Shown in pieces: positions 2,898 through 27,037 of a DNA stretch of 64,000 bases (positions are counted from its first letter, which is position 1; each line of letters starts with the position of its first letter). The stretch is from Sipunculus nudus (lineage: Eukaryota > Annelida > Sipuncula > Golfingiida > Sipunculidae), in the NCBI GenBank assembly GCA_026874595.1, contig CM049309.1:92092723-92156722 (forward strand), given 5' to 3'. The notes beneath the pieces were generated by a model. It saw nothing but the letters and a program-made list of their open reading frames with translations, was not told the DNA's origin and did not search any database. The position numbers and the translations under genes were made by a program.

Positions 2898-3116
2898 CAA
2901 ACCCATGCAGACCGTTAACTAAACCCAAGAATGGCTTCCTGCTGTGTTCCCGAGCGGATGGCGGGGGCGTCCGTCTACACGACACTCAGTGTAAACTGTT
3001 CTGCAGGAGGGGATACGCCCTGCCTAGGACGGACAACTTCATGCAACGGGATCATTTATATAAATGCAATAAAAGTGGCCATTGGTGGCCAACTGATATA
3101 ATACCTGGATGCGTAG
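2898..3116 (+). CDS. Exon: sushi domain 3, start of duplicated module A
   Basis: 73 codons, phase 1-1, acceptor cattcag. Two donors overlap at the 3' end (GT at 3113 and 3117). The one at 3117 keeps phase 1 and is preferred. The domain reads NPCRPLTKPKNGFLLC, then QCKLFCRRGYALP, YKC, GHWWP and IIPGC, giving six cysteines in the selectin/SVEP1 pattern. It resembles the sushi exon at 23941 in its long stretch between Cys 2 and Cys 3 and in its position just before the unnamed domain. Confidence 0.88.
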
Positions 3117-3579
3117 GTAGGGATAATTCTTTGTATATTTTTAATCGACACAGGTATATATATCCATTCCACCATAAGGAATACTTTTATACTCGTTGTA
3201 AATATTCTCCTGTATGAAATAATTAAGTTGACGAGGTAATAATTAAATGCAGAAAATCTCCTATTTAATCTCTTCTTCAGTTATTAATAATGATTGATAT
3301 ACTGCTCATTAACTCGATGTTGTTTATGTGGAGTAAAGTCAGAATCCTGAAACCCTCGATTTAAACGTCATTTCTCTGTTGGCAGCGTAATTTGAAATGA
3401 ATTAAATAATAGTTTTAGTCCATGCACGTAAAAACACGTAGCTCTGAGAATGTCTAACGTAGAAAAGAATTTAAAGATTTAGTGGTGAGCACGCCTCATA
3501 GAAAGTAAACGAAAACATTAAAATTAGTTTCCGATTAAATCGGTGATTTCGTTTCTAGATATGATCTTATTGTTTGCAG

Positions 3580-4149
3580 TACCAAAGAGACCAAAAGAAC
3601 TGCAGTTACGAACAGAAATCCACTTTGAATCGTCAGACTGCAAGGGACGCGGAAAGTTCCTACCTGCATTTCAAAAATGTTTAGAACCGCACGCCCATCA
3701 TTTGAAAAGTAAATGTCAAACGTCTGGGCAACACTGCGTCTTAGAAATGCCAAGAATAGAAATATTGGACCAAGAATTGCGTCCAAGAAGACACTTACGT
3801 CATAAAAGGCGGTCACGTCACAAGCGTCGCTCACGCAATAGACATCGCACACATAGGGGGCGCTCTAGACCGAGAAGAAATAGTAAAGAGTGTATTGTTT
3901 CTTTCAAGTTAACGTTTAGCACAGAAGTGAGTGGCCACGGTGAGTGGCCGGACGAGTACCATACTGCTAAAAGTCGCTTGTATGATATGTTTGATTACTT
4001 TGAGGGGCGCCTCAGTGAAGTGGAGAGCGTCCTCAAAATGGAGTTAAGAAATGTTCATATACAAATGAAAAGAAATAGTCTCACATTTGCTCCACCAAGC
4101 AACAGGTGCCCGTTCCGGTACACCTTCAACAGGGACACGCTCATGTGTG
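3580..4149 (+). CDS. Exon: unnamed Cys-containing domain with basic furin-like stretch, module A
   Basis: 190 codons in a single exon, phase 1-1, acceptor tgtttgcag and donor GTGAGT. Residues 1-60 hold four cysteines (21, 34, 46, 53). Residues 68-100 are about half arginine or lysine and contain KRRS twice, which fits proprotein convertase cleavage. After this come a predicted strand (CIVSFKLTFSTE), a long charged helix (from YHTAKSRLYDMF to about MELRNVHI) and a second strand. The exon ends in C-x12-C (CPFRYTFNRDTLMC), the same spacing as the first Cys pair of the following GCC2/3 domain. I do not recognise the domain by name. It is clearly homologous to the exons at 24607 plus 25596: cysteines fall at 21/46/53 here and 20/46/52 there. 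Confidence 0.85.
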
Positions 4150-5705
4150 GTGAGTAGGACTTCTGTTATCATTATACCTTAAAACTGTATGCTTACTTCC
4201 AGCGCAGCACAGCGTTTCAGACCTCTGAGGGGAAAGAGTTAAACCGTATCTTGGAGCCTTAAAGGTTCGCTATCATATCTCGTATAGGCTCCTATACCTC
4301 GACGTTTGGATAATTCGTAATTAATAATGTTACAGTAACATATATCATGTGTTTCTTCTTCTAGTTGATATTGAAAGAAATAAGCAAAGGCCAAAATGGC
4401 AAGATAATTAAAAGAAAATAAATTCTTAATTTATTGAACGTACACTTATAACAGTTTAGGAAAGAGAAAAGAATCAGTTTATAATTGAACCATTTTATGT
4501 TTTTAAGGTAGCTACGTTTAAAGGCAACGTGGTGCAATAAACACACTGGGAGATGCAAATGCTTTAATGATATTTGAGTTCTTTAATTATAATCAAATAG
4601 GAGATCTGGTCGACATTTTGTCGTTATTCACGTGAGACAACATGGCAAGGAAAAATACCTGAACGTTAACAAATAAAAAAAGACAAAGTATTTTGCATCT
4701 ACAGTCGCCAGTTGTCTGGACCGTACAAGATGTGGTGATTTCCTGAAAAGAATTCTGTGGTTTCTAAAAGAAGCGGAAGTAGTTTATTTGGTTGCTCCTT
4801 TGACCAGTGCGGTTGGCAGGTGCTTGCCGAAGGAAACCTATCATTATATGTGTGTTAGCAGGCATGGTCATAGAACAGAGGAAATGGGCATTGTTTTGAG
4901 CCATGTGATCCGTGCTTCAACCATTGCCACAGAGTAAACCGCGGGTCACGTGGTTACTTGTGGGACTTGAAAGACAAGCCCGTTGATTCGTCAGATGTTA
5001 TACCAGTCTGTGAACTATGTCACCGTTTTTCGTGCTTTATGTGCACAGCGTGTTACTAGGGCTAGTTTTTAGCTCGTACAAAGGCTATGAAAACAGACCG
5101 ACTGTGAGAAGCAGTCATCATATTTGGTATATCATTCATGTTATTTAAGTGGACCTTTTTTTAAACTCTTCGCAAAATACGGATGATTTGTAAGCAATTG
5201 ACGAGCGAGACGGGTTGCTGATGGGCTCTGATTAACTGGGAACTGTAACTTGTGCACTTCATGAACTTTTTCATTTGTTTCAGGGTCACTGCCCGGGTAA
5301 ATTAGGCAATTATTTCAGTTGCTATAAGGAAACGTTCACTTTGAAGTTAAATTTGTCTGAATCACTGGCACAGATGTGTTCAATTCCGGCACAATCCCTT
5401 GCTTTCTATTCGATCACCATATAATGAAAAAGAAACTATTTTGGAGTTTAGACGGATATATGTAATTTTTCTGTGTCAGAGATAATCCATTCTATCAACA
5501 GTCCATCCTGCTACAAGGCACGTATGGGCTTTGATAGTATTGTTATTTTTTATTTTAAAAAAATCGCCTGCCATAGGTCCACTTATAAAAGAAATCCAGA
5601 TTAATATGCACTCTCATAATATCATAACAATCATATAATAATGTGTATCTGATACATGCTGTGTTTGGTAATCCGAGTGTTTTTGTGTGTGTGTTGTCGG
5701 GGCAG
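4150..5705 (+). other. Intron, no gene recognised
   Basis: 1.56 kb of unique, AT-rich sequence between the unnamed-domain exon and the first GCC2/3 exon. The stretch near 4700-5000 is slightly more GC-rich, but no open frame there is bounded by splice sites or resembles a domain. Confidence 0.55.
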
Positions 5706-5867
5706 TCACGTGCGGGGCGGGGACCTGGTTCAATCAGACGATTGACACGTGCGTGCCGTGTCCAGTTGGTCAGTACCAGGACGAGGAGGGACAGTACTCG
5801 TGTAAGCCCTGTCCAGCAGGAACCGCGTCCATCGAGCCGGGGGCGTCCGCCATCGAGCATTGTGTAG
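5706..5867 (+). CDS. Exon: GCC2/GCC3 (ephrin-receptor-like) Cys repeat 1
   Basis: 54 codons, phase 1-1, acceptor gtcggggcag and donor GTAAGA. It reads TCGAGTWFNQTIDTC, VPCPVGQYQDEEGQYSC, KPCPAGTASIEPGAS and AIEHC, the regular C-x12-C, CxxCPxGxY, CxPCPxG pattern of the ephrin-receptor-like family (GCC2_GCC3). One N-glycosylation site (NQT). It is an extracellular disulfide-knotted spacer found directly before the EGF run in SVEP1. Module A ends here; its partner is the exon at 26879. Confidence 0.92.
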   Translation, partial: SRAGRGPGSIRRLTRACRVQLVSTRTRRDSTRVSPVQQEPRPSSRGRPPSSIV

Positions 5868-7724
5868 GTAAGATTTCGTCACCTTTACACAGTGACTTTT
5901 TATCCTGTTGTACCTTTATATCAGTAGCTACCCACGACGTGAGTAGGCGTTTTACAGATCAATGTAATACAGAGAGACGGATTATCGATGGCTTTGTCCT
6001 TTTTTCTATTTGTATTGCCGGGAACCGTGTCCATAAAGCTTGTAATAGTACATTAAGTCTTGTTAGGCACAAATGGTGCAAGTTGAACTATCTGGCATTG
6101 CTGCTGGTTTTATCCTTTGTTATTTAACCTCCACGACCGCCATTAAAACGGAATAATCTTGCAACAATAAGGAAATTGATGCGAATATTTCAATATATGA
6201 TAACCGTTTCGCTTGCCATAAAAGGTTAGATATATTACCCATAATCGTACGCCGACCAAGGGCATATATGACGAGAAGTCCTGTAAAATGTCCATGGCCA
6301 CTTGAGTCTGATATGAATGATGAGGCTGATTGTTTGTAAGTTATGAATCATTTATTGTGACGTATTCGGCTAAATACCTTTGTCACTGTCACGGAGTATA
6401 TTTTTGTTTTTCTGAATAAGATGTAAAGTATACAGTGAAATGTTAAAAAGAACCCTGAGACAATCCTTCATTCTCTTGTCGGCCTTTATCTTCGTTGACT
6501 GAATGTTTTCCGAGCCATTGCGCTCAATCTTTTAATACTAATAAGTGTTTCTGCAAGAATGTATAAGCTTTTTAACCCTTGGCGTTCATTGGTTCAAATT
6601 TGCCCCCCTTTTTTATATTTTTGATTGTTTGATTGTTTGCACGTATTTCTCCAACAAATTTGCAACTGGTGCTGGCATCTGGTGGAGATAATATTAGACA
6701 GGTTGATTTTGAGGAAAGGTATATATGATTTAATAAACGCAATTTAATTTGTTGAATTTTCGTCATTTAAAATAATTCAAAGGTTAAATTAATAAAAATC
6801 CGGCGTTTGGTGTCCAACCTCGCAGTACCGTCTCTTATTGCAACTGCTCATGAATAACAGCAATTAATAAAATTAAATATGCATTTGTATAGCAGAAAGA
6901 GCGGTATTATGTAGGAAGATATCTGTTTCATGTAACGATTTAGTAATCTGGACTTGGAATGCGGGACTGAATCTGGTGGTATTATTGTATATTGAGGATA
7001 ACTGTCTGTAGATCAACACATTATCTTCACAATAATTGTTTTACTTGATGTTTATAAATGGCCTGTTGTATAAAATAACGCTCCTTTGCCGTGTCCAGCA
7101 CCAAAAAAATTTTCATATCCAGGCACGTTTGAGGAATACTGGATAGACTAGCATATAAATATTTAAGGTTGTAACTGCAGTTACACAATCATTTTGCCCA
7201 CGAATTGCGTTAATGAACCTCTGATAGGAAACCTACTTCAAGAAAAGATACACCTGGTCCCAATCCTCTGAAAGTAAAATTTCCCAGGCCCCTTTATTCT
7301 CAAATTTGAAAGTCAGATCAGCGTCTGACGAGTAAGTACCGCTGCCGGCGCTTTGACCAATTCGGGAGCCTGCATGTGGTCAAGTCAGGTCGGGAATTGA
7401 ATCATTTTGGTAACTTATACGGATGTATAAAATCTATGAATAATTTTGATTGCTGCTTCAAGGGATAGATCAAGAACAAGCAGCCATGAATATCTACAGG
7501 GTAGGAACAATACCGCATAGACAGAGGGTACTGACGGACTCATAAACACACGTGACCCAGTGATTATTTCAACCTTCTGTCCAAGTTGGACGAAGAGCAT
7601 ATTTTTAAGTCCCCTCCCACCGGTACAGAGGGCTGATAACCGGGTTATGATTTTACTACATGGGTCTTTTATTGACTACAAACCATCGACAAGAATTGTT
7701 CCTTAGTTTCAATATTGTCTGCGC
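5868..7724 (+). other. Large intron, first part, no gene
   Basis: Start of a 12.9-kb intron (5868-18807). This part is AT-rich and unique. The open frame running past the donor to 6127 has no domain content and is only read-through. No exon seen. Confidence 0.55.
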
Positions 7725-9345
7725 TTGATCTCCATAACGGCCGATACTCTTCCATCGCTGTTTGCGTTAAATCTCCATTACGGCTGATACTCCTCCGTCA
7801 CTGTTTGCGTTTGATCTCCATTACGGCTGATATTCTTCTGTTGCTGTTTGCATTAGATCTCCATTTCGGCTGATATTCTTCCGTTGAAGTTTGCGTTTGA
7901 TCTCAATTATGGCTGATAATCTTCCATCGCTGATTGTGTTTGATCTCTATTACGGCTGATACCTTTCCGTTGCTGTTTGCGTTGATCTCCATTACGGCTG
8001 ATATTCTTCCGTTGCTGTTTATGTTTGATCTCTTTTACGGCTGATATTCTTCCATCGCTGTTTGTATTTGATCTCGATACGGCTGATACCTTTCCGTTGC
8101 TGTTTGCGTTGATCTCCATTACGGCTGATATTCTTCCGTTGCTGTTTATGTTTGATCTCCTTTACGGCTGATATTCTTCCATCGCTGTTTGTATTTGATC
8201 TCGATACGGCTGATACCTTTCCGTTGCTGTTTGCGTTGATCTCCATTACGGCTGATATTCTTCCGTTGCTGTTTATGTTTGATCTCCTTTACGGCTGATA
8301 TTCTTCCATCGCTGTTTGTATTTGATCTCCATACGGCTAATACCTTTCCGTTGATCTCCATTACGGCTGATACTCTTCGGTTGCTGTTTACATTTGATCA
8401 CCTTTACGGCTGATATTCTTCCATCGCTGTTTGTATTTGATCTCCATACGGCTAATACCTTTCCGTTGATCTCCATTACGGCTGATACTCTTCGGTTGCT
8501 GTTTACATTTGATCACCTTTACGGCTGATATTCTTCCATCGCTGTTTGTATTTGATCTCCATACGGCTAATACCTTTCCGTTGATCTCCATTACGGCTGA
8601 TACTCTTCGGTTGCTGTTTACATTTGATCACCTTTACGGCTGATATTCTTCCATCGCTGTTTGTATTTGATCTCCATACGGCTAATACCTTTCCGTTGAT
8701 CTCCATTACGGCTGATACTCTTCGGTTGCTGTTTACATTTGATCTCCTTTACGGCTGATATTCTTCCATCGCTGTTTGTATTTGATCTCCATACGGCTGA
8801 TACCTTTCCGTTGCTGTTTGCGTTGATCTCCATTACGGCTGATACTCTTCCGTTGCTGTTTGCGTTGATCTCCATTACGGCTGATACTCTTCCGTTACTG
8901 TTTACGTTTGATCTCCTTTACCGCTGATATTCTTTCATCGCTGTTTGTATTTGATCTCCATTACGGCTGATACTCTTCCGTTGCTGTTTGCGTTGATTCC
9001 ATTACGGCTGATACTCTTCCGTTGCTGTTTACGTTTGATCTCCTTTACGGCTGATATTCTTTCATCGCTGTTTGTATTTGATCTCCATTACGGCTGATAC
9101 TCTTCCGTTGCTGTTTGCGTTGATTCCATTACGGCTGATACTCTTCCGTTGCTGTTTACGTTTGATCTCCTTTACGGCTGATATTCTTTCATCGCTGTTT
9201 GCGTTTGATCTCCATTACCGCTGATATTCATCCATCCCTGTTTGCATTGGATCTCACTCACGGCTGATACCCTTCCATCAATGTTTGTGCTAGATCTCCA
9301 TTATGGCTGATATTCTTACATCGATGTTTGCGCCGAACATCCCCT
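7725..9345. repeat. Minisatellite of ~38-42 bp units with 115- and 127-bp higher-order repeats
   Basis: About 1.6 kb of repeats of a core like GATCTCCATTACGGCTGATA followed by TCTTCCGTTGCTGTTTGCGTT. Between about 8010 and 8270 three-unit blocks recur every 127 bp; from about 8273 to 8730 a block shortened by 12 bp recurs four times every 115 bp with almost no change. Flanking units are more diverged. The reverse strand is open for long stretches only because the unit lacks stops in that frame; it is not a gene. Confidence 0.96.
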
Positions 9346-9573
9346 ACAACTGATTTTCCAAGAGTGACTTCGGTCAGAGTAACAGTCACGGTTGCCTTGA
9401 GAAACATCATTTTATATCACATGATGCATTTAGGATCAGCGGTTAAGGTAATACAGCCTCACTAAATTCAAAAATGAATGGATGAATGGACCTGCCTGTA
9501 GTTGTGGGAGTTCTCGTGCGATCACCTTGTCATCACAGAATTCTTCCTGTCTGTCTGCCTGGTTTCTTAGTTT
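9346..9573. other. Intron sequence between repeats
   Basis: Unique sequence between the minisatellite and a dispersed element. No gene or other structure recognised. Confidence 0.5.
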
Positions 9574-10714
9574 TTAGCTGAGCTGACTGTAAGATATCTG
9601 AGCTAAAGCAATCACACTTTGTCCGTCGTCCGTCCGGTTATCCGGCTGTTAACAGGGCAAAAATCGTAACCGTTAAATCTAGAAACTTCTAACTGTACAT
9701 CCAAGGTGGTCCTAAAGAAATCTCCTTGGAAACTTTAAATTAGGTCATGGTGACGCATATTTTGTGACCTACGGGCTGAATACATGATTTTGGGAACCCA
9801 TACAGTCAGATTTGGCACAATTTGTATCCATTTGGCCTGGAATCCTCTAACGCAATATGAAGGGAGGTCCTATGCAAACGTCCTTGGAAACATGAAATAA
9901 GTTCATTGTGGCCTATATTCTTCGACCTACAGGAAATAGATGTCATATGAGCATCCTGAATGTCAGATGGGCCCAAATTTATCTGTCAGGCCTAGAATAT
10001 TCTAACTCAATATCAAGAGAGGTTCTAGACAAATCTCCTTTGAAATCTAAAATTGGGTCATGGTGACCTATAATCTGCGTCCTACGAGCCGAAAACATCA
10101 TTTCAAACAACCCAGACAGTCATATGGGCAACATATTGATGCTGTTAGGCCTGAAATCATCTAAGGTAATCTGAGGTCATGGGCAGATGTATGTGGAAAC
10201 ATTAAATTAGGTCACTGTGATCTATAATCTGTGAGCTATAGGAAAAAGGCATCATTTAAGCACCTTGAATATCAGATGGGCACAAATTAAATTGTATCCA
10301 TTAGGCCTAGAATCTTCCAACGCAACATCCAGGGAGGTTCTAGGCACATCTCTTTGGAAACCTGAAATAAGGTCATGGAGACCTAAAAGGTTATATACTG
10401 CGGGCTATGAACCAAGTATATTGATTTGAGCACCAAGATAGCAGTGTACAAATCTGTTTTCCTTGAAACCTTCTGTTGCAAAATACAGGGAGGTCCTTGG
10501 CAAATCTCATTCGAATCCTGAAAATTAGGTCAGTTAATTCTTATAATACATGTCGAAAACAAAATACAAAATTTTATTTTCCGTCCGTTTTACAACATAG
10601 TAACATTAGCCATATAGGCTATTCTGACAGATGATATAAAACATTAATGAAAGAAATGAGCACAAAGTCATATTCAGCTGAGCGTCATGGCCCATGGGCC
10701 ACTACGCCCACTCG
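9574..10714 (+). mobile_element. Dispersed element, AGCTCAGCTGAC family, diverged copy
   Basis: Starts TTAGCTGAGCTGACTGTAAG, soon followed by TTTGTCCGTCGTCCGTCCGG and a run matching the other copies (CAGGGCAAAAATCGTAACCG). It ends CAGCTGAGCGTC, then the perfect palindrome GGCCCATGGGCC (10689-10700). The middle is a series of ~150-bp segments with GGAAACCTGAAATTAGGTCA-like cores. No coding frame, so it is non-autonomous. Other copies are at 31008, 33075, 34398 and 52319. This copy is the most diverged. Confidence 0.8.
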
Positions 10715-10771
10715 TTTTAACTTTTCAGAAAACAAGTTTTGTTTAAGAATTACCTATAATACTCTCATTTT

Positions 10772-10879
10772 ATATATATATATATATGAAGAAAAACAAC
10801 TGTAAATTCACTACAGACTGTTTCACGGGATGCGACCTGATCCTCATGTGAATGTTGTATATGTATATATATATATATG
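10772..10879. repeat. Two short (TA)n microsatellites
   Basis: Two pure TA runs of about 20 bp (10774-10787 and 10861-10877) flank a unique stretch of about 75 bp in the large intron. Confidence 0.8.
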
Positions 10880-13040
10880 TGATTTAAAGTTTGTCCCTAC
10901 TTATCTTGGTGCAGAATCATTTCTGTTTGAACATGAAAAGTCCTGCCCATGAGATGAGAAAATAAGAATGGTTTACCAGTCTGGGTGGTTGTCTTCTACT
11001 CAGAGAATCTGGTGAAGGTACAATAGCGCTTTATAAAGCATGTATAATCCGCTGTTTTCACGGCCCAAATGGTCTTGATTACATATTTAGATCAAAGAGA
11101 GCTTTTTCCAAAGTATATCAACCTTGTTTGTATTGTAATTTATAAATAGTGCATAAGTACAGGCCCAGCCGTGCGAGGGTGTCATTTACATGGAGGTACA
11201 TTATACATACGCACTTGCAGCCTTTTTTATATCATTCTATTACCGTCTATACTGGGATTCGTTTTCCCCTTTTTACACCAGTGTATTGACATGGTTTGTG
11301 ACTCTTGGTGAATAACCGCATAACAGTATTCTATCCAACAAAAAGCAGGGATTCTTAAGCGGTATTCTACAGGATCTAAAGTCATTCTTTGCGGTTTGGG
11401 ATCAAGTAATCTAATGAAGGAAAATAATACGGCCCGGCGTTTTATTAAAAGCACAGTTACACTGGGTCACCTGTTCTTTTATTTTGATGTGTTAAACGTA
11501 TTGCACCCTAGAACCCATAACATGTAGTATTACCGCCAAGACTCTGCTCAGTCTTTGAGGGAACTATGTGAAGAACATTTGGATTCAATGGAGGGCATAT
11601 TTTCTCATACTGATCCTATAAATAAAGCAGGAGCGTGCCATTCTGTGGCAGTTGACAGGGGTCAACAAGTACAACTGACACCAAAGATTTCCTTACACCT
11701 GGTTGCTATAGGGCTGTCATTCAGCTGGTTTCATCTGCTGCTCCAGCTCCAGACAGCCCTGGCTTGGCGTCAGTTATAAAGTATTCGGCAAGTGAAGGCT
11801 GAACTGAGACTGTGTAGATAACTTCACAACCATGTGCAAAGAGCAAAGTATCCTGTGCTGTTATGTCCGCCCATTCATGATTTACTCATTTTGAAAATGT
11901 CTATGGAAGACACGAGAGACCTGTGTGATAAAATGGTTGTGTCTGATATGCTATATCATGATAATCTGAATGAACCGGAAGCCTTAACATCGTAAATTTG
12001 GAAACTCATAGTCCTTTTTGTTTAATTAACAGAATCTCTGTAAAGACTGAAGAGCCTTTACTTACTACTTATCATGTTAACGTTTATTATCCTTTCTGAC
12101 TCGGCGTTACTGATTTGTATAAATTTAGTTTTATTTTACATTTCATTTTGAACCCAATAGATCTAAGCAAGTCCCTAAGTAACGAGAGCGGTGGATCCGT
12201 ATGGGTTCTCTTTCTCAGCAAATATTTTAATAACTTCTCTGTAAACCGAAGAACATGGTGTCATGTTCTTAACGTTAAGGACGTGTAATTGAAAAATCCG
12301 GTCTTGTACTATGGCCCTTCCCTAAATTTTCACCATTTCATAATAAACAATTTAAAGAGTCTTGTGAGATTAATAAAATGCATTTTGGTAAAATGTAACA
12401 AGGATCAGTCGGAAATTTTCTGATAGAAATAACTGCGTAAAAAGAAGTTTATGAAATTTCCATGTGTCAAGAAAACTATATCCACATGTTATCAGAACCG
12501 AGCTCTCTAGGACAGACTGCGCTGAAAACTTCATATCTTTTCAATACTCTTTTACAAATATAGAAAAAAAAAATCAATATTATGAAATTAACAGTTTTAA
12601 CATATATAATTATTTAAATAAACGTGAGTACAATCCCAGGTATTCCCGGCATGAGAATGTACCAGGTATTTCGGTCTTTCTGTCTCCGATTTGTGTTAAA
12701 GCAGATGTTTATGGTCCGGGGAAGAGTAACGCCACCATTGACATGGCACCGAGTCACCAAGGTAACCCCTTCTGTTTTTCTGATACCTTCACAAATACGC
12801 AACAAAGCAGAACAGGTCACACGCTGGTTCATGCCCATCCATAACGGCGGCATCGGGTTTCAGGCTGGATTGAATAAATGGTTTTGTTTTAACTTGTAGA
12901 CTTACTGCTCATTATTATTTAAAGAATGCACCTGTCATTATAAACATGTTTTCCAATATTTCAAGATCAAACCGTTTTTAAGAGTAAGATAAATACCCAT
13001 CCTCTCCAGAAAACGAATGAAAAACTCCTGCCCTGCTAGC
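10880..13040. other. Large intron, middle part, no gene
   Basis: Unique AT-rich sequence. Open frames near 11555 and 12464-12899 have no recognisable domain, no matching splice sites and no bias beyond chance. Confidence 0.5.
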
Positions 13041-13048
13041 CGCCTGCA

Positions 13049-13092
13049 GCGACGAAACGTCTTGCACCGTTAACGGACGACTGTTTCGTCGC
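13049..13092. repeat. 10-bp perfect inverted repeat
   Basis: GCGACGAAAC at 13049-13058 is the exact reverse complement of GTTTCGTCGC at 13083-13092, with a 24-bp loop that itself contains GTTAAC. It lies in a GC-rich island inside AT-rich intron and could be part of a small palindromic transposon. Confidence 0.7.
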
Positions 13093-13550
13093 CTCCCCAT
13101 ATATAGGGATAAGTGGTATTTGACCACGATACGATCGTATTTTCCGAAAAAGACCGTTTTATTTTCAGTTTCACGGATGGGGTGACATTAAAACTTCTTC
13201 ACTATGACAAAAGTATCTTATTTTCAATTCAACTGCAAAATATTAGCAACTGTAAGTGTATTTTACTTTAGTTATTGTGTATTTTGGTCTAAGAAGACAC
13301 GGGTCGTTCTGCCCATAACCGCCATGACAGAAGCAGTTAGAATGTATATGTAGCGGTGACAATGTTATGTGTACTGGTCCAGTTTTGTACGAGTTAAAGA
13401 CTTAATTAAGCAGGGTATTTATGCAATTAGCTTTCCATAACAGAATGTTGTCTTTAAAAAATGAGATTCTCGAGTTACTGAGGGGTTTTCTCCCTTTATA
13501 GACCAAGATCATACACAGGTTAGAACCCTACCCAAGTGCATACATGGGGT

Positions 13551-13599
13551 GGTAACTATAAAATGTACTCTCAGATATATCTAACATTTTATAGTCACC
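13551..13599. repeat. 16-bp near-perfect hairpin
   Basis: GGTAACTATAAAATGT (13551-13566) pairs with ACATTTTATAGTCACC (13584-13599) at 15 of 16 positions, with a 17-nt loop. It could be the core of a short inverted-repeat element or a transcribed hairpin. The arms are short for a microRNA precursor. Confidence 0.7.
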
Positions 13600-15110
13600 C
13601 TTGGTGGCTACTGCCCTGCATGCTCAGCGTTTAAACAGGACGAAGTAAGGTACAGACGATACTGAGCCAAACTCTCAAAAGGTGCTGGTAATTCTGAATA
13701 ATTAAAGCCTTGGACGAAGGCCCTATCTATAAGCTATTAATATATTTTACATGTATATTCTATTAAACAGAACTAAGGAGAGTAAAGCATAGGTCTTTAT
13801 AACGTTTGCTGTTTGAGAGTTCAAAAAATGAAAAAAATAGTTAGTACCACATTGTTGTATTATCATCTGGCAGCAAAACTGCTGCGGGCGTTTTGGATTT
13901 TCATAAGCTTTCTTTGATGGCCGTACAAGTTTTTATTTCTTGCTGGGGGGCTTAATCGTTCCTACCTCGTTATATTTTATATGTAAAACTTGGGCAGGAT
14001 GTGGCGGTCAGAAAAGAGCGGACTGTTGGCTCCGGACGGTGGGTCTTTGATGTAGAGCTGTGGGTTAGACATTCCCATCACATAACACATCGAATATTCC
14101 GTTAACCTCCGCCAGACCCCACCCCGCGTTGTTCTGTTTTCCCTGATACAGCCGCGGACCCACACTGTATTACACACCAGCATGGCCCAATGAAATCCGG
14201 TTATTACATTTTATATGTACCTGGCCCCACCCGAGATGACTTGGGAGGTATGCCTGCATCTCTAAAGATAGCGCCATGTTGCCGCAAGATGGATGGCAGC
14301 TTTTGCCTTGAACCGGCGGGCTCGTCTCACGCTGGTACGTGAGAAGTTCGGCCCGAGTAACCACTTGTTTAGATCAAGTTGTAATCAGCACTAAATACAA
14401 CATGTTTCGTCTTAATCCCGCCGAGAGCTGTTACGGGTCCCTCGTGGGCTAGTCATTATTTAAAGCGACAGGTGTTGATTTGGTTGCTAGGTTGGCAGTG
14501 TCAGCCGGTTTAACTGAGCAAACCAACTCACAAGAATAGAATTTGTTTTTGTTTCTCTGCCTCACTCGGTGCCCAGGAGCTGACATATATCACATTGTCT
14601 TTTGTAGTACCCTCTAGATCATATTAAATTTATTTTCCAAAGTTTTCTCTGAGAGACGTTAGATAAACCGATATGATTAATAATTTCATAAACCAAAGTC
14701 AAAATTTTTGTGACTCGTGTGACTTAAAGCGGTATAGTTTGGCATGCACGAACGTGGGAGGAAGAAGAAGAATTATAAGAAAGGAAGCCAAGGGCGCCCA
14801 GTTCAAGAAATCCCTGAAGAATGGGGACTTGCTTGTTAATTATAACAGATAACGTGTTTATGATAACGATAACGTGATTAATTCATGTTAATATTGATTA
14901 TTTAGACAAATTAATTACACAGTATCACAGACAATGGGCGAGGAATCGCACGTCCTTAGAAATACCCTCCATGAATGTTTCACAAGAATTTGCTTGATAT
15001 ATAAAGCCATCGATCCTCCAAACGTGCTTGTGCCCTCTTAGATATGGATTGGTTAACATTAAGTGCATCTCTCTACGTCTGAACCAAAATTAAAGCCCCA
15101 ATATTTACAG
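13600..15110. other. Large intron, no gene
   Basis: No exon recognised. A GC-richer patch at 14000-14360 has open frames on the minus strand without domain content. Confidence 0.5.
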
Positions 15111-15160
15111 GGCGTAGCCAGGGGGTGTCGCAGCCCCCCCCCCCTTTCCGAATTTATCAT
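15111..15160 (+). mobile_element. Possible hAT-like element end
   Basis: GGGCGTAGCCAGGGGG followed by a long C run resembles the termini of non-autonomous hAT elements, which often read CAGGGGCGTAGCC with G/C runs. No matching opposite terminus or 8-bp target duplication could be found nearby, so this is tentative. Confidence 0.3.
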
Positions 15161-15420
15161 AAATAAATTATAAACACAACTTGTGTAATGACCCCGCGCA
15201 TACATCCTAAATATATTTAATTAATAACTGACATATTATTTACACATTTTCACCCATGCTGTGCAAACTATTTCTATCGTTTTACGTATAAACATTGTTA
15301 CAAGAATATTGATGTTCCAGGCTCCTTCTGGGCAGAATATAAAATTTTCTTGGATTTCTATCTCGACCGACTCTTTCTCCTTCTTTCTGTCCGACTCTGT
15401 CTCTCTGCCTGTCTCTCTTT

Positions 15421-15422
15421 CC

Positions 15423-15468
<46 letters not shown>

Positions 15469-15556
15469 GCGGATATATCTTCAGTCAAACCTATATTCAA
15501 CCCCCGACGCTCAACCCCCATTCCGTAAATCCGACCCCCTCCCCCCCCCCCCCTGA
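15421..15556. repeat. (TA)n microsatellite and poly-C tract
   Basis: A TA run of about 46 bp (15425-15468), preceded by a T/C-rich stretch (15365-15420) and followed by a C run (15540-15553). Open frames here are repeat-derived. Confidence 0.9.
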
Positions 15557-15559
15557 TAT

Positions 15560-16914
15560 TTAGGAATATCACCTCCTGAACTCATTCAACTAGTTCTTGC
15601 CTCGTGTCACACCTGTTGCAGTCTTGTCTAGTACCATCGGAGATTTTTTAACATCGGAAGTCCAACGGATGGTCCACAATAACCTCTCAGATTCAGTTTT
15701 AATTTCAACGGGGATTTGTGGGGGTCACTGGGTCCTGACTCCCAAATCAACGACACTGAGCATTTAAAATACCTTGTCATATTTATATTCATCTCCCCAA
15801 TTCAGCTAATATTGTTGAACGGTTTGTGTAAATAATACGTGGTATCAACAACACATTGCAACAATTATGTGTATGCAGTGAGGTGACATATGAAGTTGGG
15901 CCACTCTTTATGGCAGATATAAAATGACAAGAAAAATGTCAGCCTGGGTAAGATAGCATTATTTTTGTCCCCGCCATTGGATCATGTAGGTGCGACCAAC
16001 TTTTGTATAAACTTCTCCTGAACGCCTCAGTGAAAATTAAAGACGCCCAGTTTAAGAGTGCTTGGGTGTTTTCTTGACTATTTCTCAATCCACTTCTTTA
16101 TGTAATTGAAATACACTTGTCGACAAGGCATTCTGCACAATACATAAAACGGGTTTAGGCCCCCAGAGGTATTTAGCATAAAAACAGGTAATTGTCTTGC
16201 TTTTAAGCTTTCAGGATTAATTTAATAGTCGATAAATTCGTTGAGACCTCCGCACAATTGCCTCTAGAAGTTCTTTCATCTTCAAAGCGCCGTGTCAAAC
16301 AAATAAATCAAAAGTGTCTATTTGATTATCTGAATCTGTTGCATTATTTTATGTAAGGTGGACCCCTATGTTATTCCCACTCTCCGTAAGTGCCTGGACA
16401 AAATGAGCTAAAGATCGTTACGGTGACGTAAAATGAGACCCGAGAGATGGCAGATGACAAAACAAATATATATGCCAGTTAGAAGAAAATAATACAATGC
16501 AGTCCCCTTTTAATTTAGATGTACATGTATGTGAGTGTGCGGGCGTTTTTTGTTTTTTTTAAAGTTGGGAGTGGGGTGTGAATGGTAAATACGCCACCGA
16601 GAATTTTCAAAGAAGTTTGCGCAAATTTCTGATTGGTCCCAGCCGGGCAAAGACGTCCGTTAAGGGTAGAGTACAACGTGTACTACGGTTCTACCTTAGT
16701 GCCAGTAGTTGAATCACTCTCCTTGACCTCCGGGTCAAAACGATCTTTTTTGTTGTACTACTTGAGTTCCTTATCAGCATCAGGTTTTCGTATTTGTAAA
16801 AACTGTTGGCGTCAATGTGCCGAGCTAATCAAACATCCAGTTAAAGGTTAAATATATAGTGATAAAGCTTGTTAAAGTAATCACTGTTCAAACTGTTTGG
16901 TGTAAGACGGCCTT
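15560..16914. other. Large intron, no gene
   Basis: Unique AT-rich sequence with no exon, RNA gene or mobile element that I can support. Confidence 0.5.
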
Positions 16915-17556
16915 CCCAATCCCGGTCATGTTGTGTGTTTTACGTCATACAGTAACAGCAGCCATCAATCCCGGTCATTTTGTGTGTGTTACGTCATACA
17001 GTAACAACAGCCATCAATCCCGGTCATGTTGTGTATGTTACGTCATACAGTAACAACAGCCACCAATCCCGGTCATGTTGAGTGTGTTACGTCATACAGT
17101 AACAACAGCCACCAATGCCGGTCATGTTCTGTGTGTTACGTCATACAGTAACAACAGCCACCAAGCCCGCTCATGTTGTGTGTGTTACGTCATACAGTAA
17201 CAACAGCCACCAATCCCGGACATGTTGAGTGTGTTACGTCATACAGTAACAGCAGCCACCAATCCCTGTCATGTTGTGTGTGTTACGTCATATAGTAACA
17301 ACAGCCACCAATCCCGGTCATGTTGTGTGTGTTACGTCATAACAGTAACAAAAGCCACCAATCCCGGTCATGTTGTGTGTGTTACGTCATATAGTAACAA
17401 CAGCCACCAATCCCGGTCATGTTGTGTGTGTTACGTCATACAGTAACAACAGCCACCAAGCCCCCTCATGTAGTGTGTGTTACGTCATACAGTAACAACA
17501 GCCACTAAGCCCGCTCCTGTTGTGTGTGTTACGTCATACAGTAACAGCAGCCACCT
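16915..17556. repeat. 49-bp minisatellite, about 13 copies
   Basis: Units of 49 bp carrying GTTACGTCATACAGTAACA and AGCCACCAATCCCGGTCATG. Each unit contains TTACGTCA, a near-consensus CRE/ATF site, and an internal inverted pair (GTTAC / GTAAC). Unit variants (CAATC/CAAGC, GTGTG/GAGTG) are scattered. Open frames across the array are repeat artefacts. Confidence 0.95.
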
Positions 17557-17753
17557 GATGTCGGTGAGGGATGTGCGTTTAATATTAGCCATCATGGGTA
17601 ACACTTGGCCCAGTGCGGGTTGTAATTTATATGAGTGTCAGCTCAGAACGGATTATGTTGCCAGAGACATTAATATATGTAAGGTTATTAATAAAGTTAT
17701 GTATGAGTTTTTCTTTCAGGAACAGCAGCTGTCTTATACATGGAACCGCCCGA

Positions 17754-17848
17754 GGACACCTGTATTATATGAACACCTCTATCATGAGGACACCTGTATT
17801 ATATGAACACCTGTATTATATGAACACCTGTATTATATGAACACCTGA
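17754..17848. repeat. 17-bp tandem repeat
   Basis: Four to five copies of ACACCTGTATTATATGA, the first ones interrupted by CTCTATCATGAGG. Confidence 0.9.
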
Positions 17849-18807
17849 CACAGGGCAGCTGAATTCTTTACCTTTCCCCCAGCTTACGTTATATATAACA
17901 TTCCCCTGGACAGCTGTATTATATGTAGAGTTTCTGTCAGGACAGCACTATTATTTATATAACACCCCAAAACAGCTTTGTTATTACAATGACACATAAC
18001 ATCTCTCTGAGAGCAATCTGTATAATAAGTACAGCATAACGTACGCTTTCATTGTAAAGGCAATTTGATTCTTTTATATGTGTTATAATTCTTCTTCATG
18101 CGTGACCTGTATTACGTTACAAGTTTCTCTTGATATTTTTGCTCTTTTCTAAATGCATCAGATAAATTATATCTTTCTAAAAAATATGAAATAGCAAGTT
18201 ATCATCCATTTTCTACCTGGACGTAAACTGAAGATTCCCGTGAATTCCTAAAAGCACATGTCTTATTTATACCTAATTATTTTTAGGCCTTTCGCTTCGG
18301 TCATATCCATTACTGAAAGAAGATGTACATTTATAAAAATGCTTACAGATCATCAAAGTATTTTTATTATTTCATTTACTGGGTTGCAGGAATCGTTTGG
18401 GAGTTAATTGTTAAACTTGTCACGGTTGTTTTTGCTATATATAAGAACAGATTAATCACGTGACCGGAAAGGACCCAGTTTGAGGCTGAAAACGTACAGA
18501 CACGCGCCTCCTTCGGAGGAAAACATGTTGCAAGTGATATGTGTGCCTGGTTATCACATCTTGTAACTCTCCCTCACATTACGGCGAGGACCGCTTTACT
18601 TGGTTTAATGGTAGGACAAAAAGAGGTAGAGAAGTAGGAGTTGCCGGAAAGTTTTCATCGGTTTATTTCCCACGGGCGTTTCAAGGGTGAACGCTTTATT
18701 CCACACACGTAATTTATCAAAACAGATATCTGTAAACAAGTACCAGAGGCTTTGTGACTGACACCAGAATTAAGCGCTAATAATTATTTGTTTGTTTATT
18801 TTGGCAG
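17849..18807 (+). other. End of large intron, no gene
   Basis: Unique AT-rich sequence ending in acceptor tttattttggcag for the EGF exon. No exon seen. Confidence 0.55.
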
Positions 18808-18903
18808 ATATAGATGAGTGCTTGTCGTCGCCATGTCAGAACGGAGGACGCTGTGAGAACGGTCGGGCCCGTTTCGTCTGTCATTGCCTGCCAGGGTCTA
18901 TAG
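18808..18903 (+). CDS. Exon: calcium-binding EGF domain 1 (first five Cys)
   Basis: 32 codons, phase 1-1, acceptor ttttggcag and donor GTGAGA. It opens DIDECLSSPCQNGGRCENG, the calcium-binding EGF start (D-x-D/N-E-C), and continues RARFVCHCLPGSIG. The sixth cysteine (AHCEQ) is in the next exon, so the domain is split by an intron. CLSSPC fits the O-glucose motif C-x-S-x-P-C. CENGRARFVCHC fits the Asn/Asp beta-hydroxylation motif C-x-[DN]-x4-[FY]-x-C-x-C. Both are typical of extracellular calcium-binding EGF repeats. Confidence 0.9.
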
Positions 18904-19780: not shown

Positions 19781-19783
<3 letters not shown>

Positions 19784-21765: not shown

Positions 21766-21906
21766 GTGCTCACTGCGAGCAATCAGTCTACGACTGCAGC
21801 ATGCATTCATGTCAGAACGGGGGGACATGTATCCCGGCAGGCAAACACAACTATACCTGCAGATGTCCAGAAAAGTTCTCTGGCTTCCGCTGCCATCTTC
21901 CGTCAG
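21766..21906 (+). CDS. Exon: end of EGF 1 and EGF domain 2
   Basis: 47 codons, phase 1-1, acceptor ctccttcag and donor GTAGGT. AHCEQ supplies the last Cys of the previous EGF. The second EGF follows: YDCSMHSCQNGGTCIPAG, then NYTCRCPEKFSGFRC. CQNGGTC fits the O-fucose motif C-x4-[ST]-C, and NYT is an N-glycosylation site. This EGF lacks the acidic calcium-binding start, so it is probably a non-calcium type. It continues the adhesive stalk toward the thrombospondin repeat. Confidence 0.9.
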
Positions 21907-22269
21907 GTAGGTGAACTAAATGAACTATTGTTTGAATGCTTGCTTTCAACTGGACAGTTGACAGGCTATGAAATGTTAGTAAGTGCTTCCTGATTTACTT
22001 TTCTTGAATTAATTTAAAATACTCTAATAACAAAGGCGTCCTTCAGGTCAAATAACCATGCCTCAAGGACTTATCTTTAGGGGATTTAGCGTATCATTTA
22101 CCCGTTGTTTCAATCAAAACAATGGTTAATTCATCATCGAATGTGAAGTATTTTTGTCTGACTGGTAATGTTCTATGGTATAGACATAATGGTTTAGTTG
22201 CAGATAACTTAGTGCTTAACCGGTTATTTCCTACATAACTATTTTATGTTTTTCTTCTCGTATAAACAG

Positions 22270-22440
22270 TTGATGGGGGATGGAGTCAGTGGAGCGAATG
22301 GACCACGTGCACCAAGTCATGCGCAGTGGGCGTCCGTCAGCGGAACCGGACGTGTGATCACCCAGCGCCCTCTTACGGCGGCCAGGATTGCAGTGGCGAG
22401 CCCAGGCAGATTGAAACGTGCAACATCCAGCCTTGCCCAA
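22270..22440 (+). CDS. Exon: thrombospondin type 1 (TSP1) domain
   Basis: 57 codons, phase 1-1, acceptor tataaacag and donor GTAGGT. It reads GGWSQWSEWTTCTKSCAVG, then VRQRNRTCDHP, GGQDCSG and CNIQPCP. This is a textbook TSP1 repeat: a three-Trp ladder (W-x2-W-x2-W, C-mannosylation sites), CTKSCAVG fitting the O-fucose motif C-x2-[ST]-C-x2-G, a stacking Arg strand and six cysteines. NRT is an N-glycosylation site. TSP1 repeats bind matrix and glycosaminoglycans. Human SVEP1 is not known for a TSP1 domain, so this mosaic is a variant or a related family member. Confidence 0.95.
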
Positions 22441-23299
22441 GTAGGTCTCTAAGTTAACTCGCTGTGCCAGGCTGTTCTTATGGGTTTTTGTTAAAAACAC
22501 CCTTGCTTGAAAAGGCTAGAATGGACACGACAATGTCTTCTTTATTTTCTTAAAATTAACTGTCAGTTTGCAAACACACCTAAAATAAATGTATGCCAAA
22601 ACGTTTCTTTGACTCAACTCCTTCACACTGTAATAGAATCAGCGGTTCTGGATATTAAAAATAGAAGTGTATTTCTTAGCTTGAGGCAATCTGAATACTC
22701 GTGACGATTTAACAGTTCTATCATATTTCTTCGAAAACGCTGATATTTTACTACCAGCAGTTGAACATATACTATTATTACATACAGTGGCATCATTCTT
22801 CTGAAGCATAAAACGAGTTTTATGGACTTGTGGGGGAGTGAATAAATTTATCTGATACAGAGATGGGAGATGCTGACTCGTATGGAAGATTTGGGTAGTA
22901 TCAAATTTAAACTGCAGAATAGGTTTTGCGATAGTTGCAGACACGTGGCTGACTAGTGGTAGAGTTCCCAGGTATAGATCAATATGATGACTTATCTTGT
23001 CGATATGTGTGTGATATGTGTGTGTTCATGTGTATATGTCTCCTGCATATGCAAGGGAGACAGAAAGAGGTACATATGTTAAGAGGGTAAACTTTGTTAA
23101 TGTTCATGAATACCAATGTCGTAAGGACAAACCTGTATGTAAGTGGTCAGGTGGTGAAGAGTTACTCATTTTTCTCTGTTCTTTGTATATTGTTATTATA
23201 TGTTGCCTTTTGAGCCAACACTATTATACTTTTGATTGTAACCCTTCAGTACAGGAGTAATAAAGATCATCAATCAATCATACCTAAAGAAGTGTTTGA
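22441..23299 (+). other. Intron after TSP1, first part
   Basis: Unique AT-rich sequence with no exon recognised. It runs into the 46-bp minisatellite. Confidence 0.55.
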
Positions 23300-23912
23300 T
23301 GGATTGCTTTGTGCGATCGTTCAGTTATACTAACCACGTGTTCCTTGGGATGGTGTATGCGATCGTTCAGTCATACTAACCACGTGTTCCTTGGGATGGT
23401 GTGTGCGATCGTTCAGTCATACTAACCGCGTGTTTCTTGGGATGGTGTGTGCGGTCGTTCAGCCATACCAACCACGTATTCTATGGGATGGTCCGTGCGA
23501 TCCTTCAGTCATACATACCACGTGTTCCTTGAGATGGTGTGTGCGATCGTTCAGTTATACTAACCACGTGTTCCTTGGGATGGTGTGTGCGATCGTTCAG
23601 TCATACTAACCACGTGTTCCTTGGGATGGTTTGTGCCATCGTTCAGTTATACTAACCACGTGTTCCTTGGGATGGTGTGTGCGATCGTTCAGTCATACTA
23701 ACCACGTGTTCCTTAGGATGGTTTGTGCCATCGTTCAGTTATACTAACCACGTGTTCCTTGGGATGGTTTGTGCGATCGTTTAGTCATACTAACCGCGTG
23801 TTCCTTGGGATTGTTTGTGCGATCGTTTAGTCATACTAACCAGGTGTTCCTTCGGATGGTTTGTGCGATCGTTCAGTTATACTAACCACGTGTTCCTTTG
23901 GATGGTTTGTGC
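23300..23912. repeat. 46-bp minisatellite, about 13 copies, abutting a splice acceptor
   Basis: Units of 46 bp like GTGCGATCGTTCAGTCATAC followed by TAACCACGTGTTCCTTGGGA. Each unit contains GCGATCGT and the E-box CACGTG. The array ends only about 28 bp before the exon at 23941, so it reaches the zone where a branch point is expected. Confidence 0.96.
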
Positions 23913-23940
23913 AAGGCTTTACATTTTTCTGTGGTTTCAG

Positions 23941-24150
23941 AGTGTAAGACTCTGAGACGTCCGTACCAGGGGAGGATGGAGTGTCGCTATGACGACAAGG
24001 AGGAACTCAATAAATGCACCATAAGCTGTCCGGACGGCTACGGCTTCACGGGGCCCGTATTGGAGGAGTACACGTGTGGACCTAACACATCCTACCTGTG
24101 GCCACACGAATCTCCAGATAACCCAAGATGTACACTCCCTGCTTGCATGC
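23941..24150 (+). CDS. Exon: sushi domain 4, start of duplicated module B
   Basis: 70 codons, phase 1-1, acceptor ctgtggtttcag and donor GTGAGT. It begins CKTLRRPYQGRMEC, continues KCTISCPDGYGFTGP and YTCGPN, has a Trp (YLWPHE), and ends RCTLPAC. The C-x3-C followed by DGYGF is the sushi core. One N-glycosylation site (NTS). It has the same long gap between Cys 2 and Cys 3 as the sushi exon at 2898 and plays the same positional role before the unnamed domain. Confidence 0.85.
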
Positions 24151-24606
24151 GTGAGTATTACCTGTATACTCGCATTATATAATGTCATAAGCATAAATAG
24201 TGTAAAAATGTGTGTTTTATTTACCACTGTGTGCTGCAGTTGACTACAATTGACTGGATGATAAGTTTATAATAAAGCATAGGGTGTCATTTTGAACTGT
24301 TTTTAGGTATTTCTTCTAACTCGTGAGGGTGTGTGTGAGTGTCAAACACCGATTTGTATACAATAAAAGTATAGAATGTTCATCATATGGACTCAAGATG
24401 ACACAAATATCGTTGTGCCTGAAACATATTTTTTACTCATGATGTTACATTAAAGAATTGCTTAACATAGGAGATTCAGCTATCCCCCGGCATTTGCATC
24501 TTTTTTTTACAATTACATTTAACCGATATAATTCGTTCTTCTCATATTTTATTTCACTTTCTCATACCTTGTTTATTATTGTTATATTTTTTGAATTCAT
24601 CAACAG
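24151..24606 (+). other. Intron, no gene
   Basis: AT-rich unique sequence between sushi 4 and the unnamed domain copy B. Nothing recognised. Confidence 0.55.
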
Positions 24607-24894
24607 GGCTAGGCGATGCGTCCGAATCCCAGTACACCTTTACGACCAATTTCTCTGTTCCGTGCAATACCGGTGACCTCGAGTCTCACATACGTCATCA
24701 GGTCCGCAAGCGGGCGACGGAAATGACGCGACACCTCCACTGCCTTCGGCGAGGCACGTGCGAACTCAAGACTCCACTTGTGATTGGCTGCAGCAATCGA
24801 CGCAAACGCTCCATACACGCAAACAGTACTATGACTGAAAATGTTGGTGTACAAGTATCTCTGGTGTACCACAGGAATTACAACCGGGGATCGG
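24607..24894 (+). CDS. Exon: unnamed domain, first half, module B, with RRKR-S site
   Basis: 96 codons, phase 1-1, acceptor catcaacag and donor GTGAGT. Cysteines at 20, 46, 52 and 62 align with 21, 46 and 53 of the exon at 3580. NRRKRS at 64-69 is a consensus furin site (R-x-K-R before S) at the place where the other copy has its basic stretch. It is followed by a predicted strand, VGVQVSLVYH, equivalent to CIVSFKLTF. Two N-glycosylation sites (NFS, NST). I do not recognise the domain by name. The helix and second strand continue in the next exon, so an intron interrupts this copy but not the other. Confidence 0.85.
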
Positions 24895-25595
24895 GTGAGT
24901 GTTATATAGTTTAATAATAGTGGTCACCATGTGATTCGCGAAAAGTGAAAACTGCTTATGTCTGGGGACAGGCAGTTTGGGTATTCAATTTTAAAATTGA
25001 TAATAAAACTATAAGCATCATATCAATTCCTAGTTTAATGAAGGAACCATATAAAGATGAGGCACCCCGCTGGCAAAAGTCCCAGATAAGGGACATTTTG
25101 TAATGTCATACTACTGGACTAAAGCCGAACAGCATACCTAAATATAATTTTTACAAATATGACGTCATGATGATTACCATAGTGCCACAGATGCCCTGAG
25201 TAACCCACATGACTTGTGTCACCCCATTGCAACATAGTCCATATTAACTTGAGACTGGTGTCAAATCATGTAAGTATCTTATGGTTTACTACCTGTGCAT
25301 AGTATATTGTGGCCAAGCAGCTTATGGTCTTTCTAAGTTTCCATTTAATCAGAGCTTATCCTCTAAATGGCAGTTACATGTCTCGCCATGCCCTGGAACC
25401 CGCGTATGATCAAGAGCAGTCAGATGGTATGGTAGCGCCGCCTACTTCTTCGTGAAAACCTGATTTCACAGACTGATACGACTTGTTACGTTGAACGCAG
25501 TAACATTTTCTTTGTGGTAACGCTATCGTAATTATAATCATGTATTATGGACAATCTAACACGCAGTGCATTATAGGTTTTTATGACATTTGCAG
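24895..25595 (+). other. Intron within the unnamed domain, no gene
   Basis: 700 bp of unique sequence that splits module B's unnamed domain. The equivalent intron is absent from module A. Nothing else recognised. Confidence 0.6.
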
Positions 25596-25793
25596 CGTCA
25601 ACCCGTGAGGTGAAGGCCACTTCCCATGAAATCTCCCGCCTCGGCCAAGCCCTCATGGCCAGAGTGTCTTCTGGCGACATCTACCTCATTCTGGGCAATA
25701 AAAAGGTGGTCGTCGAGCGCAACAGGACAGACGCCAAGAGCGAGATTCTTTGTCCCAAGGGCATGAAGCAGGCATACAACAAGGAGTTCTGCG
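25596..25793 (+). CDS. Exon: unnamed domain, second half, module B
   Basis: 66 codons, phase 1-1, acceptor catttgcag and donor GTAGGT. It opens with an amphipathic helix (from STREVKATSHEISRLG to about ARV), then a strand (IYLILGNKKVVVE), and closes with C-x12-C (CPKGMKQAYNKEFC). This matches the end of the exon at 3580 both in predicted strand/helix order and in the exact Cys spacing. One N-glycosylation site (NRT). Confidence 0.85.
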
Positions 25794-26878
25794 GTAGGTG
25801 TACACAGCACAAAGGGCTTGGTTCTGCACCCGGTTGTAGGTACATGGGACGTTTTGTCACACTGAGCTTCACTATAGAACCCATAGCAAATAAAATGACA
25901 GACGACCCGTAATGTGGTGAAATAGTTGTTTTGACGGTGGTACCTTAATGACTCATCAGCGCCGTCTGGTATTCATTTGTTGAAACAAAATAAAACCTCC
26001 CAGATAATTCCCAAGAAATCCCTTACAAAAACAGATGGTGAAATTTGATCAGTGATAAACTTAAAACTGATACCAGCATACATTATAATTAATGTGAACA
26101 TGGACATTTTATTGCAGAACTGTTTCATGCATGAAAACGAGATGGTGTTGATGAGCAGTTCGGGTACCTCTGTAAATAAATATTATTACTGTTTAAAAGT
26201 AGCACAGTATAGTAATCGTATTTGAATTCCAGCCTAGTAGTGATAATTAGAATAAATATTTTAGAGATATTTTAGAGGCTTTTGGTCTACATTTCGATGT
26301 TGAATCTGTTGAAGGTTATTCAGATAAAAAGGAAATAGTTATGATGGTTAGCATTGTATCATTTACCTTTGCTGCGTTTGCATTGATTGTTAATAGTTTT
26401 GATCACGTTTGTAAACTTAATATACCAAGAGCCTTAATGAAATCATTAAATCAAGTCTCCAAAACAGTCACTTAGTGTGACTTTATTCAGGATTCTTGTT
26501 CTTTATTCCCGATTTACACTTGATTACTGATGATTGAAGGGCAGTAAATTTTAGAAATTTATTTAATAATTATAATATTTAATATATTTAATGTCAGCTC
26601 TAAATGCTACATTTAATAACCGTTGATTTTAAAGCAGTATCACTAGGTCCTTCTTATACATGTTGATTATCTGGAGGTTTTGTATTTAGTAATATGTTGG
26701 GAGCACGTAGATAGTCGAGTCATTAGAGTAACATTCAGGCGGGACTAGCACTTGGTGCCACGTAACGTTTACATCAGCCTTTCCCGTACTCATCACTTGC
26801 TTCCCGATGTACCACGCATGCTTACACCCGGATCGCAGTGCGTGTGCACGCTTTATACGTGGGTCTGGTTTCTTGCAG
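25794..26878 (+). other. Intron, no gene
   Basis: Unique AT-rich sequence. It ends with acceptor gtttcttgcag. Open frames that run into the next exon are read-through. Confidence 0.55.
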
Positions 26879-27037
26879 TGGCCTGCAGCCCGGGTACGAA
26901 GTTCGAAAACCGGCTACGAGACTGCAGTCTGTGCGAGGTGGGTAGCTTCCAGCCCGAAACCGGACAGTTGTCATGTGTGCCCTGTCCTCCCGGTCACACC
27001 ACGCTGGGCAGGGGCGCCACCTCGCGACAGGATTGTT
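26879..27037 (+). CDS. Exon: GCC2/GCC3 (ephrin-receptor-like) Cys repeat 2
   Basis: 53 codons, phase 1-1, acceptor tttcttgcag and donor GTAAGT. It reads ACSPGTKFENRLRDC, SLCEVGSFQPETGQLSC, VPCPPGHTTLGRGAT and SRQDC, the same C-x12-C, CxxCxxGxF, CxPCPxG layout as the exon at 5706. It closes module B and is the last disulfide-rich domain before the membrane. Confidence 0.92.

Follow-up and report, generated by a model that had tools for sequence, protein, structure and literature searches.

The window analysed here is a stretch of 64,000 nucleotides of the Sipunculus nudus genome (C4:92092723-92156722 of a 1.43-Gb assembly). Its + strand carries a gene in which the order sushi, unnamed domain, GCC2/3 occurs twice, at 2898–5867 (module A) and at 23941–27037 (module B). 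We read this gene, with moderate confidence, as Polydom-like, each module being a copy of the Polydom/SVEP1 core and the unnamed domain an SEA-like domain with a furin-type cut. A and B are best regarded as members of a module family and not as a demonstrated internal duplication. The pair alone is unconvincing; the case depends on relatives found elsewhere in this genome.

The two modules

A first-pass annotation had proposed the repeated order and its positions, and both are borne out within one exon chain. The features of the two modules are as follows.

2898..3116, + strand: module A sushi, pre-module type (exon borders, frame and sushi tree; group support 96/92)
3580..4149, + strand: module A unnamed domain, single exon (frame, AlphaFold2 model, cysteine spacing and exon-end scan)
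3780..3878, + strand: module A basic loop, expanded (sequence; R-H-K-R twice, at 3798-3809 and 3816-3827)
5706..5867, + strand: module A GCC2/3 (PF07699)
23941..24150, + strand: module B sushi, pre-module type (exon borders, frame and sushi tree)
24607..24894, + strand: module B unnamed domain, exon 1, predicted strand-helix-strand-loop-strand (model, spacing and weak profile support)
24798..24809, + strand: R-R-K-R before Ser in the loop of module B, a furin-type site (sequence)
25596..25793, + strand: module B unnamed domain, exon 2, with the end C-x2-G...C (frame and exon-end scan)
26879..27037, + strand: module B GCC2/3 (PF07699)

The early cysteines are located at 20/45/52 in A (counted from 3582) and at 19/45/51 in B (counted from 24609); with the split codon included these become the 21/46/53 and 20/46/52 of the first-pass annotation. 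Copy A has the start C-x24-C-x6-C, with an extra cysteine within the first spacing (predicted helix 1) and without a fourth cysteine. The first exon of copy B reads C-x25-C-x5-C-x9-C. The final C-x12-C is present in both copies, in A without the usual Gly. As annotated, copy A is one exon and copy B is split by an intron, which measures 701 bp.

A basic stretch is found in both copies. In A it spans ~33 residues, chiefly Arg, Lys, His and Ser, and a low-confidence model places it as a loop joining predicted strands 2 and 3. A strand-helix-strand following the basic stretch had been described in both copies; an AlphaFold2 model of A, of low confidence, shows it there. The statement that no named domain covers the segment agrees with Pfam, which has no significant model in either copy and no model whatever for the corresponding segments of six relatives. 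The matches of A to Circo_capsid (E 0.56) and RRXRR (E 1.3) are below significance and reflect the basic stretch.

Direct comparison of the two copies

Comparison of A with B alone does not show homology. The blastp match (E 0.058) is confined to the basic stretch. With three matrices, the global score is equalled by 516, 130 and 220 of 1000 shuffles and the local score, to which the basic stretch contributes most, by 23, 64 and 99 of 1000. With this stretch masked, 625 of 1000 shuffles reach the score of the pair. The hhalign P values are 0.27 (local) and 0.68 (global), and MAFFT by itself misaligns the two copies. Lack of significant similarity between the copies had been named in advance as evidence against the duplication, and for the pair alone blastp, shuffles and hhalign returned just that. 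Different predicted folds had been named likewise; the structure models, which are poor, did not reveal such a difference.

With cysteines dealt at random, the three-cysteine start together with the terminal pair arises at 4.5e-5 (A) and 2.5e-5 (B), for a pattern written after both copies had been seen. The three-cysteine start alone is common (15 of 2,198 frames in the window). The four-cysteine form is found in 3 of the 2,198 frames, namely B and two antisense frames.

A sequence search of the PDB returned seed storage proteins only (E 0.33–1.3), and these were dismissed. Foldseek with models of both copies gave no match at E 0.001. Viral contigs scanned with A, the first exon of B and GCC2/3 of B contained no relative. 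In the S. nudus genome, only A itself was found below E 0.1 when A was used as query, and the next match (E 0.132) has internal stops.

Relatives in the same genome

GCC2/3 is present at no fewer than 84 places in the genome. Near part of these, 25 stretches (20 + 5) were examined, and a stretch was counted as positive if it contained an exon ending in C-x2-G-x(n)-C one base before the donor, a matching first half, or both. Fifteen of the 25 have the unnamed domain, or part of it, upstream of GCC2/3 (L009, L011, L013-L017, L020, L022, L023, L025-L028 and L036). L016 has the terminal exon only, the first halves of L025 and L026 match weakly (E 0.02-0.03) and none is listed for L027. A preceding sushi is seen in six of the fifteen (L009, L017, L020, L022, L023 and L028). 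L017/L022, L020/L023 and L025/L026/L027 are near-copies, and the positives therefore represent about eleven independent cases.

No unnamed domain was found in L010, L012, L018, L019, L021, L024, L033-L035 and L037. L010 and L012 are the downstream continuations of L009 and L011, L037 is located upstream of the window, and the other negatives cover part of a gene. On the gene strand of these stretches, the exon-end scan picked up 13 C-x2-G ends plus four of another form; the opposite strand had none. L009 and L011 were found by eye because their donors are atypical. In the window, the scan yielded A (without the Gly), B, six ends in a 49-bp minisatellite and two antisense ends.

GCC2/3 exons are clustered on C5 (~26.9-27.2 and 36.7-37.1 Mb) and on C2 (~13.9-14.0 and 54.06-54.17 Mb), which suggests local expansions of such genes.

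Cysteine frame and basic loop

The sequences can be described by a common frame of predicted elements: strand 1, C1, helix 1, C2, C3, strand 2, C4, basic loop, strand 3, helix 2, strand 4 and the terminal cysteine pair. In a MAFFT alignment of seven first halves including B, cysteines 2, 3 and 4 are kept in all rows. The C1–C2 spacing is 24 in L009, L017, L020, L022, L023, L028 and A, 25 in B and 23 in L036; outliers are L014 and L015 (16) and L013 (32). The C3–C4 spacing is mostly 8, with 7 in L015 and 9 in B; C4 is missing in A.

R-x-K-R is present in six of the ten loops seen (L017, L020, L022, L023, twice in A, and B). The others have K-R (L013), R-R (L011), R-K (L036) or no basic pair (L028). 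L014, with H-K-R directly after C4, was left out of this count because its exon end is not settled. The loop of the probable SVEP1 orthologue (see below) was looked for and not located.

Copy B fits this frame, with a first half that scores slightly better than the controls. In a search of 9,726 frames with a profile built without A and B, the first half of B was found at E 0.083, next after L011. With reversed frames added, it scored 0.17 to 0.27 and the best decoy 1.7 to 2.9. The hhalign P value is 0.012 and none of 40 shuffles scored as high, likewise with the cysteines held in place. A later first-half profile, in which L009 and short rows were misaligned, did not list B at E 2 and listed another frame of the window at 0.87. 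For A, the hhalign P value of 0.29 is inside the range of seven control segments from the same gene (0.26 to 0.84); with the loop shortened it is 0.088, and 2 of 40 and 1 of 40 shuffles scored as high. A second-half profile of 15 relatives listed neither A nor B at E 5. Membership of A is thus circumstantial, depending on position, phase, cysteine spacing, predicted element order and the sushi partner. The claim of two homologous modules draws support from the relatives and none from the direct comparison: the case is fair for the first half of B and circumstantial for A.

Partner exons and introns

The sushi tree comprises 30 sushi repeats and 58 columns. Seven of the eight sushi directly preceding an unnamed domain (A, B, L009, L017, L020, L022 and L023) form one clade with support 96/92. 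Outside this clade are the sushi of L028 and 22 others, including the two ordinary sushi of the gene itself. The pre-module group was defined without L028, after an earlier result had set L028 apart. The clade favours inheritance of both modules as units.

Copy B is interrupted in phase 1 ahead of presumed helix 2. Alignment by eye puts the phase-1 start of an L009 exon at the corresponding position (the preceding L009 exon was not found). In L020 and L023 a phase-2 intron precedes this position by a few residues, and in L017 and L028 an intron separates predicted helix 1 from strand 2. None of these positions interrupts A. The first-pass annotation had left gain and loss of the intron open. 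Because the intron place of B matches the exon start of L009, loss in A is the simpler reading, and A probably lost the intron.

Relation to Polydom/SVEP1

L009 and L010 contain, on one strand, sushi, HYR (E 3.4e-13), sushi, pieces of the same unnamed domain with four cysteines, three GCC2/3 and EGF. A pentraxin match (C4:5916973) is located ~6 kb further along this strand, and L009/L010 is the probable SVEP1/Polydom orthologue. Searching the genome with PF00354 gave two places at E 0.001, C119 and C4:5916973, and none in the window. The match at C119:98499-98954 sits in a 771-residue open frame.

The window gene has the Polydom-like core sushi-HYR-sushi-GCC2/3, with an in-window HYR below the cut-off (E 0.015). 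It shares with Polydom/SVEP1 the order sushi, HYR, sushi, unnamed domain, GCC2/3, EGF, and differs in its two modules, TSP1, a presumed membrane segment and the lack of a pentraxin match in the window. Nematostella Polydom-like proteins, according to the available parts of their description, have a Sushi-HYR-TKE core but lack vWFA and pentraxin, and TSP1 repeats occur in some of them (PMC12549020). The window gene differs from them in having two cores and a membrane exon; in those parts, the unnamed segment and a membrane segment go unmentioned. In the literature searched, subscription journals being mostly outside reach, we noticed no paper that names the segment.

Proposed fold and cleavage

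The following model builds on the observed architecture, recurrence in the genome, cysteine frame and loop motif. The Polydom/SVEP1 core would consist of a special sushi, the unnamed domain of ~160-190 residues and GCC2/3, and would be present twice in the gene. For the unnamed domain, of which the fold models are poor, we infer as most likely a ferredoxin-like, SEA-like fold with the order strand 1, helix 1, strand 2, exposed basic loop, strand 3, helix 2, strand 4. Two disulphides may pin the first half and the terminal cysteine pair the end. During secretion, a furin-type convertase would cut within the basic loop that joins strands 2 and 3, and the halves would be held together by the sheet they share, as is the case for Notch and GPR126. 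In Polydom, the cut would produce the 115- and 270-kD chains; an SEA-like domain with a furin site at this position would explain the published cleavage. In the window gene, the cut would separate an outer part that can be released from a part anchored in the membrane, and module A would offer a second place to cut.

The SEA domains of GPR126, Notch2 and Mucin-1, as far as the available parts of the source describe them (PMC6954182), would share with the unnamed domain the ferredoxin-like order and a furin-type motif in the strand 2-3 loop. Framework cysteines and a downstream GCC2/3 distinguish the present family. The SEA motif G-SVVV is absent from A, B and the relatives read. A Notch negative regulatory region would have LNR repeats ahead of its SEA-like domain; no Notch/LNR model is among the 14 Pfam families of the joined gene model. 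A frame at L024:5442-5778, ~4 kb before a GCC2/3 exon, contains S-P-G-S-V-L-V-D-F, which we take to resemble an SEA domain of the self-cutting kind in its second half; considered as a bridge to SEA, it had no Pfam match and was discarded.

Alternative explanations

Several observations weigh against this model. In A, B and the segments of seven relatives, the Pfam model of SEA has no match with E up to 10. Copy A is listed by no profile, has no significant similarity in any comparison and lacks both the fourth cysteine and the Gly of the terminal C-x2-G. R-x-K-R is missing from four of the ten loops, and the ~33-residue loop of A exceeds the needs of a convertase. The loops might instead be uncut matrix- or heparin-binding patches and the domain a mere disulphide-linked spacer in the same module family. 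We consider this rather unlikely, since R-x-K-R stands at one spot in five sequences besides A (L017, L020, L022, L023 and B; about three independent cases, because L017/L022 and L020/L023 are near-copies) and Polydom is reported to be cleaved on secretion. The deficits of A would also suit an exon unrelated to the family that came to lie between sushi and GCC2/3 by chance. Such an origin is improbable for an exon that occupies the corresponding position, is flanked by phase 1 on either side, starts with C-x24-C-x6-C and ends with C-x12-C, shows the predicted elements in the same order and follows a sushi of the pre-module type.

A true internal tandem duplication, as claimed by the first-pass annotation, would make A and B closest mutual relatives with A fast-changing. 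They share an exon chain and the module order, and the GCC2/3 tree, with mostly open forks, does not reject one A+B clade (p-AU 0.55; the tree holding both together is 1.9 log units better). In the sushi tree, on the other hand, sisterhood of A and B costs 9.5 log units and is marginally rejected (p-AU 0.036). The tree program warned of long branches meeting (B with L009), and this rejection is therefore a lean and not proof. The duplication is thus not demonstrated and appears improbable; a Polydom-like gene with two members of a module family is preferred.

Gene model and surroundings

The exon chain extends over 348-29338 of the + strand, with all shared introns in phase 1 (borders by eye, with a frame-by-frame check). 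The order is sushi, sushi, HYR-like, sushi A, unnamed A, GCC2/3 A, EGF, EGF, TSP1, sushi B, unnamed B (two exons), GCC2/3 B, short linker and presumed membrane exon. The EGF and TSP1 exons lie between the copies, as annotated. In the joined gene model, Pfam finds Ephrin_rec_like (GCC2/3) in two stretches (E 1.5e-24), and Sushi, TSP_1 and EGF are all above the cut-offs. The remaining exons are listed below.

348..524, + strand: sushi, ordinary type, outside the pre-module sushi clade (best PF00084 stretch, splice sites)
788..973, + strand: sushi, ordinary type, outside the pre-module sushi clade (exon borders, frame)
2275..2532, + strand: HYR-like exon (Pfam HYR E 0.015, below the cut-off)
18808..18903, + strand: EGF, first part (borders, frame, Pfam)
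21766..21906, + strand: remainder of the first EGF and second EGF (borders, frame, Pfam)
22270..22440, + strand: TSP1 (PF00090, E 1.1e-12)
27898..27951, + strand: short linker exon (splice sites, phase)
29239..29338, + strand: presumed membrane-spanning exon (hydrophobic stretch, then C-F-R-C-R-S-R)

The 5' end of the gene is upstream of the window. L037 covers 4.7 kb of this flank and contains an HYR end above the cut-off (E 1.1e-7). With the phase-1 filter, no convincing candidate for a further exon was found in 5868-18800 and 29345-36000. The one-gene model across the 13-kb gap (5867-18808) is based on phase and domain order.

Minisatellite arrays are present in the introns at 1000-1914 (period 40), 7716-9332 (43), 16916-17555 (49) and 23310-23912 (46); the 46-bp array stops 28 bases ahead of the sushi B exon. 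Other arrays are located at 38360-38918 (period 43), 48047-50508 (79/158) and 58799-62138 (34/303). On the - strand, 44466-45542 is a 359-residue open frame that matches rhodopsin-type GPCR models (7tm_1 E 5e-16), probably a single-exon receptor gene.

Significance for the Polydom family

New so far as searched are the domain frame across a genome, the recurrent furin-type loop and the two-module gene with a presumed membrane segment. In lymphatic and vascular biology SVEP1/Polydom acts as a ligand, according to the available parts of two accounts (PMC10281526; PMC9932102). In the Pfam copy used, no named domain covers the segment in which its cut may lie. Paralogues of one genome made it possible to recover, in part, a module that pairwise comparison does not show. 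Only tentatively do we suggest that an unrecognised, cysteine-framed SEA-like domain founds an animal-wide class of two-chain proteins cut by furin, of which Polydom/SVEP1 is the known example; the window gene would then be a membrane-bound representative that has two successive cut points and can shed two defined pieces. If the domain is SEA-like, this gives the place and manner of the Polydom cut, the two chains of which may stay associated, and contributes a variant that is membrane-bound and has two hinges of this kind.

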